This document shows, piece after piece, positions 1-64,000 of a DNA stretch of 64,000 bases. The stretch is from Archilochus colubris (taxonomy: Eukaryota; Chordata; Aves; Apodiformes; Trochilidae). Within the stretch, counting starts at the first letter, position 1. Each line of letters opens with the position of its first letter. The stretch spans positions 3,780,519 to 3,844,518 of the forward strand of contig CM041090.1 of the NCBI GenBank assembly GCA_023079485.1, read 5' to 3'. A program made the position numbers and the translations under genes. The notes beneath the pieces are model-generated. The model did no database searches. It was not told the DNA's origin and was given only the letters and a program-made list of their open reading frames with translations.

Positions 1-673
1 CTGAAACATACCAGTTATTCCTGTACAAGGGAAGTGCCTGAGTCTGTGTAGGGCTTTGTTTCTTATTTCTATGTAAGTTGTTTGGTTTTGTTTGTTTGTT
101 TGAAAAAAAAACACCACAAAATATTCTCAGGCAATCACTGTCTTGGACATATAGGTTTGAATTTCTCTCTTTCCATCACTAGAATTCAAAGTTCTTACTC
201 CTAAGAACAAACACCTCCATTAAGCAGACCAATTCCAGTAATGTAGGGCATTTTGTCCAAAGGGGGGAGGGGGGGGCAAGATGAATTGGGAATAAAAGAA
301 GTGATATTTTAGGTGGTGTAGGGTCCTTTACCATTTTGCTCAGAGGTCCTATGCAAATAATGACATAATGGAACAAATGCCTCAGTCCTTTGTCAGAGGA
401 CATCTCTTTATGAAAAATGTATATTGCCATTGTAATGCAGTGTTGAAGGCTGGACTTTTCTAAAGTAAGCTCTCTGTTGTTTTGCAGAGAAGATATCTTT
501 GTCATAATTCCTAATACATCATTTACTTCTCAGACTGAAGTCATAGATTTTATTGACTCAAATGGAAAAAGTCAATACTCATGCATTACTAAGTTTATAC
601 AGTGTTACTAAAAAAAAAAAAAAACAAAACCGAGAGAGAGAACATACATAAACCAGTGTAGGGTTTTGTATTT
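1..673. other. Unique non-coding DNA
   Basis: AT-rich sequence with no ORF that resembles a gene. It holds a G-rich run (six G, one A, eight G at 262-276) and a poly(A) run near 610-624. The 108-codon minus-strand ORF at 179-505 has no recognisable domain and is treated as chance. Confidence 0.6.
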
Positions 674-15105: not shown

Positions 15106-15621
15106 TTTCCTTTCCTTTCCTTTCCTTTCCTTTCCTTTCCTTTCCTTTCCTTTCCTTTCCTTTCCTTTCCTTTCCTTTCCTTTCCTTTCCTTTCCTCTCC
15201 TTTCCTTTCCTCTCCTTTCCTTTCCTCTCCTTTCCTTTCCTCTCCTTTCCTTTCCTCTCCTTTCCTCTCCTTTCCTCCTTCCTTCTCCTCTTCCTTCTCC
15301 TCTTCCTTCTCTTCTCTTCTCTTCCTTCTCTTCTCTTCTCTTCTCTTCTCTTCTCTTCTCTTCTCTTCTCTTCTCTCTCCTCTCCTCTCCCTCTCCTCTC
15401 CTCTCCTCTCCTCTCCTCTCCTCTCCTCTCCTCTCCTCTCCTCTCCTCTCCTCTCCTCTCCTCTCCTCTCCTCTCCTTTTCTTTACTTTTCTTTCCTTCC
15501 CTTCCTTAACCTTCCTTCCTTTCCTTCCTTTCTTTCCTTTCCTTCCTCCCTTTCCTCCCTCCCTCCCTTCCTCTCTCCCTTTCCTCCTTTCCCTCCTTTC
15601 CTTCCCTTCCTTCCCTTCTCC
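15106..15621. repeat. 516-bp homopyrimidine satellite-like tract (TTTCC/TCTCC/TTCTC)n
   Basis: The plus strand is entirely C and T apart from three A residues (15485, 15508, 15509). It begins as a (TTTCC)n array to about 15194. It then becomes a higher-order array of 15-bp units, TTTCC TTTCC TCTCC, repeated about four times and followed by 10-bp TTTCC TCTCC units. Next come (TTCTC)n at about 15309-15375 and (TCTCC)n at about 15376-15476, then irregular C/T sequence. The tract is a strong candidate for triplex (H-DNA) formation. The long ORFs across it on both strands are translation of the repeat and are not genes. Confidence 0.95.
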
Positions 15622-57480: not shown

Positions 57481-57542
57481 TGTCACGGTTTAACACTGGC
57501 CCGGCGATTAAACCGAATAACAGACGCTCTCTATTAATCTCT

Positions 57543-57570
57543 CTCTCTCCTTGATAGAGAAAGGAGAGAG
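57543..57570 (-). promoter_or_regulatory. LTR U5 hairpin
   Basis: CTCTCTCCTT (57543-57552) and AAGGAGAGAG (57561-57570) form a perfect 10-bp stem with an 8-nt loop. The 5' LTR keeps most of the stem, and the old solo LTR keeps a weaker version. It lies downstream of the predicted polyadenylation signal. A role in RNA folding is inferred. Confidence 0.5.
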
Positions 57571-57614
57571 AATAAGGGAGAGAGACTTATGGGTTGGAAA
57601 CTAAACTACACAAC

Positions 57615-57620
57615 TTTAAT
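57615..57620 (-). terminator. LTR polyadenylation signal (ATTAAA)
   Basis: The minus strand reads ATTAAA about 35 nt downstream of the TATA-like box. Placement fits a short R region. The same hexamer is present in the solo LTR and in the 5' LTR. Confidence 0.5.
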
Positions 57621-57650
57621 GAAACAGTAATGATAAATAGGAAAAATTAC

Positions 57651-57660
57651 TAAATATATA
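57651..57660 (-). promoter_or_regulatory. LTR TATA-like box
   Basis: TATATATTTA on the minus strand is the best TATA match in the LTR, and it is also present in the 5' LTR. Transcription would start roughly 25-30 nt further, near 57625. Inferred from position only. Confidence 0.45.
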
Positions 57661-58256
57661 CAAATATACAGGCAAATGGAAACCACATTCCTCCCCCCTC
57701 TCCCCCAATAACTCTCCCGTCACCACCGAGGCTGTAGGGCAGCCCTGGGAAAGTCCAGGCTGGACTCCTGGAGTCGGCAGCAGTCGGGAACCGGAGGCAG
57801 GAACACACAGATATGGGCTGGCACGGGTCAGGACCACAGGCAGACGAACGGGCAGGATCCTTCCAGGATGCCGGGAAGGAAGGGAAGCAGGAAAAAATCT
57901 GGCTCGGCCCACGTGATGGCTCAAATTATACTGAGTGTGACGTATATGGGATGGAATACTCTGTTTGGTCAATTCTGGCATCTATCTTGTCCGTTCCTCC
58001 CTAAAGGAGGGCTCTGGTGGGACCTCTGTATCCTCCTGGACGGTAAAATGTTTTCCTCAGAGCGGAGGAAAGCAGTGTCCTTGGCCTGCATACCAGTCTC
58101 TAGCAGTAACTATAAACATCAAGTGTTATCAATCCTAAAAACAGACACTGAGAAACTTGCTGTTAGTTTCACAAGTGCAGCTACTTACAAGGGACTTAGC
58201 TAAAAGCAAAAATACAGAAACAGAAAACCACCTTTATCCTGGTCCAAACCAGGACA

Positions 58257-58739: not shown

Positions 58740-61088
58740 CTACCAAGTGTGTCCAGGCCCTTGAGCGAAAGCAACCCCACGAATGGGTTTGCCTTTGCCC
58801 GAGGCAGGATAAACCCAAACTGTTTTCCCCAGCAGATTCTTCTCATGCACCACAGGCACTTTGTCCCCATCTACTGTGTGTAGAAGATCTGACTGAGCAG
58901 GACCAGCTCGATTGATGGAACCCCTGGTATTAACTAACCAGGTAGCTTTTGCCAAGTGCTTGTCCCAGTTTTTGAAAGTTCCACCACCCATTGCCTTTAA
59001 GGTAGTTTTTAACAGACCATTGTACCTTTCAATTTTACCTGAGGCTGGTGCATGATAGGGAATATGGTATATCCACTCAATGCCATGTTCTTTGGCCCAG
59101 TTATTTATGAGACTATTTTTGAAATGAGTTCCATTATCTGACTCAATTCTTTCTGGTGTACCATGTCTCCACAAGACTTGTTTCTCTAGGCCCAGGATAG
59201 TGTTCCGGGCTGTGGCATGAGGCACAGGATATGTTTCCAGCCATCCTGTACTTGCCTCCACCATTGTAAGCACATAGCGCTTACCCTGGCGAGTTTGAGG
59301 CAATGTGATGAAGTCGACTTGCCAGGCCTCCCCATACCTATATTTTGACCATCTCCCTTCATACCATAGAGGTTTCAACCTTTTAGCTTGCTTAATTGCA
59401 GCACATATGTCACAATCATGGATAACCTGCGCAATAGAGTCCAAGGATAAATCCACCCCTCGGTCACGAGCCCATCGATATGTTCCATCCCTGCCTTGAT
59501 GACCTGAAGCATTGTGGGCCCATTTGGCCAAAAACAGTTCACCTTTATGGTCCCAGTCCAGATCTATTTGGAACACTTGAGCAGCCTCATCTGCTCGTTG
59601 GTTGTTTCGATGTTCCTCCGTAGCTCGATATGAAGGTACGTGGGCATCTACGTGACGCACTTTTACATCAAGTGTCTCTAACCTAGCAGCAATGTCTTTC
59701 CAGAGTTCAGCAGCCCAGATAGGTTTATCTCTACGTTGCCAGTTGCTTTGCTTCCACTGCTTTAACCAACCCCATAAGGCATTTGCTACCATCCATGAGT
59801 CAGTATAGAGATAAAGTCTCGGCCACTTTTCTTGTTCAGCAATGTCCAAAGCCAATTGGATAGCTTTTACCTCTGCAAATTGACTTGATTCACCATCTCC
59901 TTCATCTGTTTTTGCAACTAGTCGTGTAGGATTCCATACGGCAGCTTTCCACCTTCGATGGCCTCCTACCAGACGACAGGATCCATCAGTGAAAAGAGCA
60001 TATTGTTTCTCACTCTCTGGTAGTTGGTCGTATGGTGGGGCTTCTTCAGCCCGTTTTACCACTTTTCCTGGTGGCATTCCAAAGTGTTTGCCCTCTGGCC
60101 AATGTGTTATTGCTTCTACAATTCCTGGACGATTGAGTCTTCCTATCCTAGCTCTCTGTGAGAGTAAAGCAATCCATTTACTCCAGGTATCATCGGTAGC
60201 ATGATGGGAAGATTCTCTACCTGTGTACATAAAACCCAGTACAGGTAATCGTGGCACTAGGAGGAGCTGTGCTTCAGTACCAATCACTTCTGAAGCAGCT
60301 CTAACTCCTTCGTATGTGGCCAGTATCTCCTTTTCAGCAGCTGTGTAGTTGGCTTCGGAGCCTTTGTAGTTTCGACCCCAAAATCCTAGAGGTCGGCCTC
60401 GAGTCTCTCCTGGAGCTTTCTGCCAGAGGCTCCATGAAGGACCATCACCTCCATCTCCGGTGTAAAGAATATTTTTGATGTCTGGCCCTGTTCGAATTGG
60501 TCCAAGGGCCATTGCCTGTACAATCTCCTGCTTAATATTCTCAAAAGCAGCTTGTTGTTCTGAGCCCCATTTAAAGTCTTTCTTCTTCCGAGTAACCTCG
60601 TAGAGAGGTTTCACAACCTGATTATATAAAGGAATATGCATCCTCCAGAAACCAACAGTTCCTAAGAAGGATTGAGTTTCCTTTTTGGTAGTTGGTGGGG
60701 CCATAGCAGTTATTTTGTTAATCACGTCCATTGGGATGTGGCGACGTCCATCTTGCCACTTAACTCCCAGAAACTGTATCTCTTGCGCAGGTCCCTTGAC
60801 CTTGCTCCTTTTAATAGCAAAACCAGCCTCTAGGAGGATTTCAATTATCTTCTTACCTTTCTCGTAGACTTCCTTTGCTGAGTCACCCCATACAATGATG
60901 TCATCGATGTATTGTAGATGTTCTGGAGCTCCACCCTTTTCCAAGGTATCATGGATCAGTCCATGGCAGATGGTAGGACTATGTTTCCACCCCTGGGGCA
61001 GTCGATTCCAGGTGTACTGGACACCTCTCCAGGTGAAGGCAAACTGTGCTCTGCATTCTGGTGCTATAGGAATAGCAAAAAACGCATT
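58740..61088 (-). pseudogene. ERV pol, RT core to integrase
   Basis: The 782-codon open frame continues RT from a frameshift at 61089-61090. Motifs in order, numbered from a TTG codon at 60944: an LPQGWKHSP block upstream at about 60965-61000, then the YIDD active site at 12-15. RNase H follows with D320, E358, D382 and D452. Integrase has a zinc-binding site (H477, H482, C511, C514) and a D544, D603, E639 catalytic triad with exact D-35-E spacing. All these catalytic residues are intact. The frame ends at a TAG (58740-58742) but stays open for 22 more codons to a TAA at 58671, with peptide that looks like a normal integrase tail. The TAG is therefore probably a TGG-to-TAG nonsense change. 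There is no dUTPase. Confidence 0.92.
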
Positions 61089-61843
61089 ACAATGTCAATA
61101 GTAGCATACCACCTGGCTGCCTTTGACTCCAGCTCATACTGAAGTTCTAATATGTCCGGCACAGCAGCACTTAGTGGCGGTGTAACCTCATTCAGGGCAC
61201 GATAGTCCACTGTCAGCCTCCACTCTCCATTTGGCTTTTTCACTGGCCATACAGGACTGTTGAAGGGTGAATGAGTCTTGCTGATCACTCCTTGGCTCTC
61301 TAGTTGCCGGATCAGCTTGTGAATGGGGACCACAGCATCTCTGTTGACACGATATTGTCTACGATGCACTACTGAAGTAGCAGTTGGCAGCCGCTGGTTT
61401 GTAGTTCTCAGCAATCCCACTACAAAAGATTTATCTGAAAGGCCAAACAAAGTATGCAGCCATTCTGCATTCTCAGTCTTAATAGCTGCAGTACCAAAGG
61501 ACCAGCGGTACCCTTTCGGGTCCTCGAAATCACCTCCCTTGAGGTAGTCTATGCCAAGGATGCATGGAGCATCTGGACCAGTCACTATTGGGTGTTTATG
61601 CCACTTTATTCCAGTGAGGCTCACATCAGCCTTCACAATAGTCAGTTCTTTAGATCCCCCTGTCACTCCAGAAATAGTGACGGAGTCTGTGCCTTTTTGA
61701 TTCGATGGCATTAGGGTGCACTGTGCACCAGTGTCCACCAAGGCTTTATACTTTTGTGGCTCTAATGTGCCAGGCCATCGAATCCACACAATCCAATAGA
61801 TTCGGTTGTCCCTCCCCTCCACCTGGCTGGAGGCAGGGCACCT
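61089..61843 (-). pseudogene. ERV pro and N-terminal pol (protease, start of RT)
   Basis: This frame opens directly after the gag UAG and has no ATG near its start; the first likely codons are non-AUG. It should therefore be made as a Gag-Pol fusion. Numbered from a GTG at 61822, the retroviral aspartic protease motif ALVDTGAQ has its catalytic Asp at 30, a flap-like GVTGG at about 52-56, and CILGIDYL at 87-94. RT begins near 165 with PVWPVKKPNGEWRLTVDYRALN at 190-211, and its first catalytic Asp is at 243. The frame is then lost by an apparent one-base deletion at 61089-61090 and runs into a stop at 61064. RT continues in the next frame. Confidence 0.9.
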
Positions 61844-61846
61844 CTA
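61816..61846 (-). promoter_or_regulatory. Candidate stop-codon readthrough signal (UAG plus hairpin)
   Basis: The gag stop UAG (61844-61846) is in the same frame as pro-pol. Ten nt downstream, CCUCCA (61833-61828) pairs perfectly with UGGAGG (61821-61816) around a 6-nt loop. Gammaretroviruses use UAG readthrough with a structured element about 8 nt downstream, so the layout is similar. The UAG could instead be an inactivating mutation in a continuous Gag-Pol frame. A pseudoknot was not tested. Confidence 0.45.
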
Positions 61847-63676
61847 AGCTTGAGCACATACAGCATTGTCAGTATGTGCATTACTGGAGCTTGCATCCCC
61901 AGTACTCACACCTGATGTGCAGGGGTCTTGAGTCACCAGCATTTTTGGATTGGGTAACTCTACACTGGAGACTTGAGCAGCCATCTTTTTAGAAGGACCT
62001 CCTTTTGCCTTTGGCTTACTCATCAACTCAAACACTCGGTCCTGTAGGGCAGCAGTAGGTTTCTTGTCCCACTTTTTCATTTCCTCTCCATACTCACACA
62101 GGAGTGCCCATAGGGTCCCTCTTGCTGATTTCTGTTTCTCTCTATTCTGTCTCATAGGAGGGCGTCTCCTCTTAATGGCTGCAATGGGGCGTCCTCCGTC
62201 CGTCTGAGGAGAAAGGGGTGAATGCCATTCCTCAGATGCTCTCTTGATAGCTGAGACCCAGGCCCGACAAGGGGCTATGACAGCATCTTCACACTCTCGT
62301 ACAGTTTTAATCACATCACCCACAGTTGTATCTATCTCTGTAGGAACCCATAGCATTACTGATAGTGTATGATTAAAAGGTGGTGGTGCAGCATGCACAA
62401 ACCTTTGCATCATAGGTTTAGGGCATGGTATGTGATAGGGATCTTCAATGTCATCATTATTATAGATCAGATCTCGTACAGCCAATTCTTCGAGATACCT
62501 GATAGCTTTTCCAAGGTTGCGTGCTTTGATCTGTGGGCAGTCTATTTCCTCTTTATAGGGATATCTCTCCTTTACAGCTGACAAGAGTCGTTTCCACAGG
62601 CTGGTAGTTCCAGCCTTTTCCCCAAATGCCCGATCAATACCTGCATCTTTGGCCAGGGATCCCAACTGCCTGGCTTCCTTCTGAGTTAATGTTATGGTAG
62701 CAGCCCCATCATTCCAGCATCGGAGTAACCAAGAGAGAAGTGGTTCACCTGGAAAACGGCTGAAATCTTTTCTCAGAGTACGCAAGTCTCTCATGGAATA
62801 GAGCTGAGCAGATTCTGAGTCTGAGTCCTCATCTGACTCTGCGCTAGCTGCTCTACGAGGAGAGGCAGTATCCTCTATTTCCTCTATCACCTGGTCATCT
62901 TGTTCAGACTTGGAAGGGTTGAGGCTCGCTTCTGATTTCCCTTGTTTTCCTTTTCTCCTAGTTATAGGGTTAACAAGTAACTGTGTGGGCTGAGGGGGAG
63001 AGGCTGAGGCATCTGCAGCAGTGGCAGCAGCAGGGCTTGCTTTCTGAGCAGCAGCAGTGTCTGTGGGAGTAGACACAGCAACTGGAGCTGTAGCAGAAAC
63101 ACTGGCAATGCTGGCCGGCCTTATCTGAGTTGGGCCCTTGCGTGAGGGGGGGCGAGAAGCGGCTGTGGAGGCAGGAGTGGGGGTGCTCTCTGTACGAGGA
63201 GCAACTCTCACTCTCCGAACAGCAACTCTCGGCCTCCGAAAAGGCATACTCAGTCTCATTACTGTGGTTTTTGTGTTACTCCTCACCAATATATGAGAGA
63301 AATTAACAACACCCACCAAAAGATTGAGAAAAGAAATGTTACTGTTACTAAAATCAGGTGGAGTCAGCCCAAAATACGATGGGATGGTATAATTTTCCAA
63401 ATTAAAACTGGGAGTGTAATTACCAACCAAGTTTTTTATCTCTGTATGAAACACTACTGCACCATGCACCATGATATACATCAGTATTGAGGACCCTATT
63501 GCAATGATGGTTCTTAAGCAGCTCTTACGAAAGACAAACCACAAAGTAACAGCAATCCCAGCTGCAAAAATACACATCACATACCCTAAATACCAAAGGT
63601 ACGGCATGATTGGTTTAATCTCCAACCCTGTGAAATTTCCAAAGAACAAGGTCTGATTCCAGCTCAGGAAAGCCAT
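61844..63676 (-). CDS. ERV Gag-like protein with N-terminal membrane domain
   Basis: A 610-codon intact ORF. The start chosen is the first ATG (63674-63676), with a strong context (A at -3, G at +4). The frame is open from a TAA at 63725-63727. From that ATG, residues 1-24 carry sequons at N7 and N14. Hydrophobic segments lie at about 25-49 and 56-76, separated by RKSCLR. Residues 77-113 have sequons at N86, N95 and N113. A third hydrophobic stretch is at about 114-131. An Arg-rich start-like stretch, MPFRRPRVAVRRVRVA, begins at M144 (63247). A Pro/Ala/Ser/Thr-rich linker (about 160-245) and an acidic Ser/Glu/Asp block (about 258-290) follow. A capsid-like region (about 293-475; DLRTLRKDF, then LLSWLLRCWNDGA, then LGSLAKD) resembles avian ERVL Gag. 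A basic patch, KRRRPPMRQ, is near 502-510. There is no CCHC zinc knuckle. If translation began at M144 the leader would have a normal length. Confidence 0.8.
   Translation of the reverse strand: MAFLSWNQTLFFGNFTGLEIKPIMPYLWYLGYVMCIFAAGIAVTLWFVFRKSCLRTIIAIGSSILMYIMVHGAVVFHTEIKNLVGNYTPSFNLENYTIPSYFGLTPPDFSNSNISFLNLLVGVVNFSHILVRSNTKTTVMRLSMPFRRPRVAVRRVRVAPRTESTPTPASTAASRPPSRKGPTQIRPASIASVSATAPVAVSTPTDTAAAQKASPAAATAADASASPPQPTQLLVNPITRRKGKQGKSEASLNPSKSEQDDQVIEEIEDTASPRRAASAESDEDSDSESAQLYSMRDLRTLRKDFSRFPGEPLLSWLLRCWNDGAATITLTQKEARQLGSLAKDAGIDRAFGEKAGTTSLWKRLLSAVKERYPYKEEIDCPQIKARNLGKAIRYLEELAVRDLIYNNDDIEDPYHIPCPKPMMQRFVHAAPPPFNHTLSVMLWVPTEIDTTVGDVIKTVRECEDAVIAPCRAWVSAIKRASEEWHSPLSPQTDGGRPIAAIKRRRPPMRQNREKQKSARGTLWALLCEYGEEMKKWDKKPTAALQDRVFELMSKPKAKGGPSKKMAAQVSSVELPNPKMLVTQDPCTSGVSTGDASSSNAHTDNAVCAQA
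63248..63676 (-). other. Predicted membrane domain encoded in the proviral leader
   Basis: The 143 codons before the Arg-rich M144 contain 6 of the 7 N-X-S/T sequons in the whole ORF. By the positive-inside rule the N-terminus would be lumenal, the RKSCLR loop cytosolic and residues 77-113 lumenal. A third crossing would return the basic Gag body to the cytosol. This resembles in concept the glycosylated Gag of gammaretroviruses or a foamy virus Env leader, but I see no sequence relation to either. The hydrophobic segments and sequons are seen directly; topology and function are inference. Confidence 0.55.
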
Positions 63677-63753: not shown

Positions 63754-63771
63754 GCCCCACGTTGGGCGCCA
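63754..63771 (-). promoter_or_regulatory. Primer-binding site, tRNA-Lys1,2
   Basis: The minus strand reads TGGCGCCCAACGTGGGGC, an exact 18-nt match to the 3' end complement of tRNA-Lys1,2, the primer used by Mason-Pfizer-type betaretroviruses and foamy viruses. It lies 7 nt from the 5' LTR edge (63779). Confidence 0.92.
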
Positions 63772-63778
63772 ATAAATC

Positions 63779-64000
63779 TGTCACGGTTTAACACTGACCC
63801 GGCAATTAAACCGAATAACAGACGCTCTCTATAATCTCTCTCTCCCCTCGATGAAGAAAGGAGAGAGAATAAGGGAGAGAGACTTATGAGTTGGAAACTA
63901 AACTACACAACTTTAATGAAACAGTAATGGTAAATAGGGAAAAATTACTAAATATATACAAATATACAGGAAAATGGAAACCACATTCCTCCCCCCTCTC
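63779..64000 (-). repeat. 5' LTR of the provirus (truncated by window)
   Basis: It begins (in plus coordinates) TGTCACGGTTTAACACTGACC and parallels the 3' LTR from 57481 through the TATA-like and ATTAAA region. Only the R/U5 end and the start of U3 are inside the window. About 550 bp more is expected beyond 64000. Confidence 0.95.

Follow-up and report, generated by a model that had tools for sequence, protein, structure and literature searches.

A predicted membrane domain at the N-terminus of Gag in an env-less, ERVL-like endogenous retrovirus of Archilochus colubris

The first 143 residues of Gag in an endogenous retrovirus of Archilochus colubris probably form an integral membrane domain, which would replace the myristoylated matrix and place assembly on membranes of the endoplasmic reticulum (ER) or the secretory pathway. 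We give this reading a probability of roughly 0.6. Most of one copy of the element lies on the minus strand of the 64,000 nucleotides analysed here (the window), from position 57481 to the window end. A sequence-only reading of the same DNA had described a leader turned into a membrane domain fused to Gag, and all sequence features on which it was built were found in the window.

All features of the element are encoded on the minus strand. The 5' LTR (63779..64000) is cut by the window end, with about 556 nt more beyond it, and is followed by the primer-binding site TGGCGCCCAACGTGGGGC (63754..63771), presumably of the tRNA-Lys type. The gag ORF of 610 aa (61844..63676) runs from the ATG at 63676 to a TAG at 61844, which is in frame with the pro-pol region (58740..61822) encoding protease, reverse transcriptase (RT), RNase H and integrase; the RT part is broken in the window copy. 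This TAG (61844-61846) was apparently lost in some other copies, which have longer open frames of 884, 1439 and 1685 aa. Alignment of the two LTRs placed the 3' LTR at 57481..58256 and revealed 23 mismatches over 778 aligned sites, three of which precede the TG start. The element is flanked on both sides by a 5-bp target duplication, CTGAC. As had been claimed, env is absent from the window copy, the longest sense frame in the interval from pol to the 3' LTR having 28 codons. Sequence matches of pol in the PDB were RT chains labelled p80 and Pr125Pol and the integrase of PFV. A dUTPase was not found: the pol ORFs gave no Pfam match to one at an E value of 1 or lower, and no later frame has more than 28 codons; because of this the element is called ERVL-like only and is not filed as ERV-L. 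Elsewhere in the window, a TTTCC pentamer repeated about 102 times (15106-15617) gives rise to long chance ORFs on both strands.

The 610-aa Gag contains no zinc knuckle of the form C..C....H....C (CCHC), no myristoylation glycine at position 2 and none of the late-domain motifs PPxY, P[ST]AP and YPxL. A capsid-like region was located at residues 281-560 (61997..62836) by its sequence similarity to 17 relatives and by a structure model with a pLDDT of 74, which gave weak structural matches to retroviral capsids.

The Gag start codon (63674..63676) is the first ATG 3' of the primer-binding site and lies 77 nt past it in a strong context, with A at -3 and G at +4, in agreement with the earlier description. 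Among 94 copies read in the same genome, this ATG was present in 89 and A at -3 in 91; the 80 nt upstream were free of ATGs in 91. The predicted N-terminal membrane domain (residues 1-143, 63248..63676) is supported by comparison of copies, selection and hydrophobicity in the subfamily of the window copy, here called type A. Where two or three hydrophobic segments had been proposed, three were found with Kyte-Doolittle (KD) windows of at least 1.6: predicted TM1 at residues 30-48 (63533..63589; KD 2.15; low-confidence AF2 helix 24-49), predicted TM2 at residues 57-75 (63452..63508; KD 2.07; low-confidence AF2 helix 53-83) and predicted TM3 at residues 113-131 (63284..63340), which is weak in the window copy (KD 1.63) and strong in the second subfamily, type B. 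Residues 144-610 contained no such window. A predicted luminal loop (residues 76-112, 63341..63451) carries the sequons N86 and N95 and is replaced by other sequence in type B; behind TM3 follows a basic, probably cytosolic stretch (residues 132-160, 63197..63283) that includes M144 (63245-63247). Sequons occur at residues 7, 14, 86, 95, 113, 125 and 435, so that six of the seven indeed fall within the first 143 residues. This segment had no Pfam match above the cut-off and no sequence match in the PDB, which bears neither way on whether it could act as a separate protein.

Hydrophobicity was scanned in 86 type A copies, a set that omits five stop-bearing copies and retains two frame-shifted ones; a second scale was also applied. 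Three hydrophobic segments were present in 64 copies, two in 20 and one in two; TM3, reaching the threshold in 64 of 86, is borderline in type A. Base composition gives 143 open codons a probability of 7.5e-5, and shuffling left the frame open in 7 of 200,000 trials. Among 3,000 random stop-free sequences, at least two hydrophobic windows occurred in 25% and at least six sequons in none. The claim that a random leader would rarely stay open and show this pattern holds for the openness and the sequon count, but not for the hydrophobicity.

The distribution of charges agrees with an N-out topology. The TM1-TM2 loop, FRKSCLR, has three K/R and no acidic residue (+3/0), and residues 133-160 after TM3 have eight K/R and no D/E (+8/0). 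N7 and N14 precede TM1, and N86, N95 and N113 lie between TM2 and TM3, N113 at the very edge of TM3. Charges and most sequons would thus fit a protein with a luminal N-terminus, three spans and a cytosolic capsid; N125, inside TM3, would go unused. The AlphaFold model of the domain was poor (pLDDT 50.8, pTM 0.22), with a helix at residues 116-133 in addition to the two given above. Topology prediction, proposed earlier as a check, is favourable in its charges and in its sequons apart from N125, with a structure model of low confidence.

A protein search of the bird's own genome with the 143 residues returned 2092 candidates, of which the best 150, down to 72% identity, were scored. No stop was present inside the match at 134 of the 150 places; some matches were partial, and several lay in a whole open gag frame. 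The 94 copies read are 94 of these 150 places. Eighty-nine were gap-free over the 429 nt, five of them with stops; the remaining five comprised two frame-shifted copies and three from another subfamily. Three further places, L095, L096 and L097, coincide with L028, L073 and L102, and each pair entered the counts once. All 94 were ranked by their likeness to the segment, which inflates their openness; two other samples were ranked without it. Ranking by the capsid of a distant Gag gave 63 places, 47 of them lying in frames open for at least 590 codons, a number that includes one copy in which the start of the domain is lost (L100) and unchecked frames of 1182 and 3739 codons. In L100 a repeated, satellite-like sequence has taken the place of the domain's beginning and stays open into gag. 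Ranking by integrase (eight places read of 150) gave seven in which the segment was open over about 150-160 residues with no stops; the eighth, L106, was off target. The expectation that related copies keep the segment open was thus borne out by seven of eight blind integrase picks.

The sequons are kept to different degrees. N7 was present in 85 of 89 type A and 15 of 15 type B copies, and N14 in 82 of 89 and 13 of 15. Of the loop sequons, N86 occurred in 84 and N95 in 86 of the 89 copies of type A, and neither was present in any of the 15 of type B; N113 was limited to 17 of the 89. In one scoring, 28 of 40 places were located on a single contig of 32 Mb (C32), and other rankings look alike. 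This contig may be the W chromosome, a known refuge of ERVs in birds (PMC8310711). Open frames of 13264, 3739 and 2808 aa surround the matches at C32:5729442-5730041, C13:21805764-21806666 and C32:4482485-4483084, for which runs of N are the likely cause.

Variants were counted in 91 type A copies; L091-L093, which belong to the other subfamily and have different columns, were left out. Singletons, mostly of post-insertion origin, served as the neutral control, and variants found in at least three copies represent the period of replication. In residues 1-143, singletons comprised 143 nonsynonymous and 51 synonymous changes (omega 0.90, 0.71-1.22). Variants in at least three copies comprised 40 and 33 (omega 0.39, 0.26-0.61), a count in which some changes that followed insertion may pass for shared ones because of duplicates on the copy-rich contig, and those in at least five copies 26 and 18 (omega 0.46, 0.25-0.91). 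The difference between singletons and variants in at least three copies was significant (Fisher p 0.005). The gag body had an omega of 1.08 for singletons and 0.69 for shared variants, and its shared N/S ratio did not differ significantly from that of the segment (p 0.09). Estimates for TM1-TM2 alone were noisier, with 0.51 (0.24-1.09) in at least three and 0.83 (0.39-2.79) in at least five copies. For 51 copies that had few private changes, dN/dS calculated pairwise was 0.57 in residues 1-143, 0.76 in residues 144-300 and 0.51 in residues 301-610. In the 15 type B copies, omega was 0.74 (0.44-1.36) for variants shared by at least two and 0.64 for singletons, the two being indistinguishable; L100 was left out of this count. 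These comparisons support the view that the type A segment is coding, conserved and was under purifying selection during replication of the element. The prediction of a dN/dS below 1 from purifying selection stands for type A; the type B comparison speaks neither for nor against it.

The second subfamily bears on the position of the Gag start. Type A and type B are closely alike over residues 1-77. After TM2, type B has a different loop and a stronger TM3 (KD 2.7-3.0 in the five copies scanned), and TM1 fell under the threshold in two of these five (L098 and L101). The N-terminal domain was carried by all 15 type B copies read, and M144 with its Arg-rich stretch by none of them; only in L098 does a separate Met follow directly after TM3. 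Since M144 is absent from type B, Gag of this subfamily cannot start there. As far as the compared copies go, this shows that Gag of the family has no need of M144 and removes an ordinary start at that position, and it leaves the proposal of a leader converted ahead of an ordinary Gag beginning at M144 unsupported. In type B, Gag would presumably start at M1, with further in-frame Mets lying within the domain. Two copies, L092 and L093, combine first halves as in type A with second halves of type B, and such mosaics suggest recombination.

The capsid region matched 17 proteins, to which a profile search added one. An N-terminal hydrophobic window of at least 1.6 ahead of the capsid was present in 12 of these 18 relatives, each with a sequon before or inside the window. 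P0002, P0003, P0005, P0006, P0016 and P0018 had no such window; several of these six look truncated or are gene models, so that their starts may be missing. P0001 from Alca torda has the simplest layout, with about 30 residues and one TM (window 26-44, sequon at 29) ahead of basic residues and Cys. In P0004, sequons at 71 and 114 separate a window at 27-45 from another at 142-160, and the P0007 kind, ten versions of one element, shows a single strong window preceded by a sequon. Over their N-terminal part P0004 and P0007 resemble each other, which leaves two unlike kinds among the 12 relatives. Besides Alca, Aegotheles is a named host. P0004 and P0007 also have a long, coiled-coil-like repeat of differing length between the membrane part and the capsid. 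A predicted membrane segment ahead of the capsid hence appears to recur in the lineage, the sequence likeness of the relatives' N-termini to that of the window being suggestive at best. Because two unlike kinds of relatives have N-terminal hydrophobic segments, a membrane-bound Gag N-terminus may be old in this lineage.

Other explanations for the segment were weighed against these data. A chance read-through of the leader without function could draw on the hydrophobic windows, which are common in T-rich sequence and appear at least twice in a quarter of random stop-free frames, and on the similar omega of shared and singleton variants in type B. It is disfavoured by the openness of the segment in the blind-picked copies, by selection in type A and by the lack of an M144 start in type B, and we consider it very improbable. 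Alternatively, two products could be made as in viruses with glycoGag, a membrane-bound long Gag with an accessory role and a structural Gag initiated at M144 through leaky scanning. M144 persists in 90 of the 91 copies of type A, with A at -3 in the window, and the glyco-gag of gammaretroviruses is an N-terminally extended, glycosylated Gag begun in the leader (PMC3423011). Such a division of labour is nevertheless quite unlikely, given that all 15 type B copies read lack the M144 stretch and that M1 is the first ATG past the primer-binding site and has a strong context. Eight more ATGs, two of them out of frame, follow M1 up to and including M144, and the extra residues of glyco-gag, a type II protein, are cytosolic, opposite to the topology predicted here.

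The domain could also stand in for Env and, exposed on particles or at cell contacts, aid passage from cell to cell by analogy with the FAST-like sORF2 proteins. The window copy indeed has no env ORF, and a short N-outside segment followed by a TM and a basic stretch corresponds to the sORF2/FAST layout (PMC11952523), of which P0001 would be the simplest version. Against this role speak the missing N-myristoylation glycine, the three predicted TMs instead of one and the fusion to Gag instead of a separate protein; we regard it as unlikely. A domain that is cleaved from Gag and functions by itself, perhaps forming a small channel or counteracting a host membrane restriction factor, would be compatible with the hydrophobic hairpin and loop and with a loop/TM3 module that differs strongly between the subfamilies, but our confidence in such a function is low.

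According to the preferred reading of a Gag-fused membrane domain, translation would start at M1 and the first hydrophobic segment would be recognised during translation, leading to insertion into the ER membrane. Since env is missing and a predicted membrane domain stands in front of Gag, co-translational ER insertion would be the simplest account. The N-terminus and the TM2-TM3 loop are predicted to be luminal and likely N-glycosylated, the TM1-TM2 loop and all of Gag past TM3 to be cytosolic. The capsid region would be tethered to ER or secretory membranes on their cytosolic side and assemble there with RNA, joined by Pol through readthrough of the gag TAG. In this env-less element the membrane domain would substitute for a myristoylated matrix and favour an intracellular, retrotransposon-like cycle. 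Cleavage between the domain and the capsid may be expected because membrane association should be transient; according to a foamy virus review, replication may be blocked by a lasting tether to the membrane if the protease does not free the capsid (PMC7828637). A wider scenario, in which a bird ERV lineage swapped myristoylated matrix and Env for multi-span, glycosylated, Gag-fused domains that were exchanged or rebuilt between subfamilies and species, allowing membrane-bound assembly and perhaps envelope-free passage between germ-line cells, is speculative and has a small chance of being right.

Retroviral Gag commonly gets to membranes by way of a fatty acid, of basic patches or of Env. If true, a structural Gag with several membrane spans of its own would represent a different solution and show a way in which an env-less element stays tied to membranes; where particles assemble, and whether they exit the cell, thereby become testable questions. 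The sequence-only reading knew of no description of the arrangement for ERVL-like elements. In agreement, searches of open-licence PMC papers, judged by titles and the beginnings of abstracts, listed no report of a structural Gag anchored in membranes from ERVs of birds or of class III.

Several known systems resemble the window element in part. Glyco-gag (gPr80gag) has a membrane-inserted, glycosylated N-terminal Gag extension encoded in the leader, but there it is an additional, CUG-started form with 88 cytosolic residues (PMC3423011), whereas the window form is apparently the main Gag with a predicted cytosolic capsid. In type II glyco-gag the Gag body is luminal; the basic stretch after TM3 would predict the opposite orientation for the window Gag. 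Env-less insect LTR retrotransposons encode a small TM protein, the FAST-like sORF2, mostly upstream of gag; this is a separate ORF with a single TM and, in four of six cases, a predicted myristoylation motif (PMC11952523). The window domain differs from the FAST layout in being fused to Gag, with three predicted TMs and no Gly2.

Among class III ERVs, XtERV-S/ERV-L share the in-frame gag stop and the 5-bp target duplication (PMC8278194), HERV-L and MuERV-L the lack of a CCHC motif (PMC2717909), and MuERV-L is env-deficient with particles accumulating in the ER (PMC5930517). XtERV-S has a Ser primer-binding site, in contrast to the presumed Lys type of the window element; polybasic stretches are reported for the XtERV-S Gag (PMC8278194), and the available part of that report does not mention a membrane domain. 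The Gag of OVEX1 is described as having no myristylation and a polybasic N-terminal sequence, a membrane segment again going unmentioned in the accessible text (PMC2717909). The Gag of Ty1, too, passes through the ER (PMC3945221). MuERV-L is reported to encode a dUTPase (PMC2717909), which was not found in the window element.

Foamy viruses share a Gag without a myristoylation signal (PMC7828637), and their integrase is related to that of the window element. In the latter, the membrane part sits in Gag itself. Foamy virus Gag, by contrast, relies on Env for envelopment.

The IAP elements of the mouse belong to a different retroviral class from the window element. They are likewise env-less and intracellularised, and changes at the N-terminus of their Gag re-address the particles to the ER membrane, after which env decays (PMC2791754). 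In both cases a Gag N-terminus would set the ER address in an element that lacks env; for the window Gag this direction is a prediction, and its N-terminus differs from that of IAP in forming a predicted multi-span domain with sequons.
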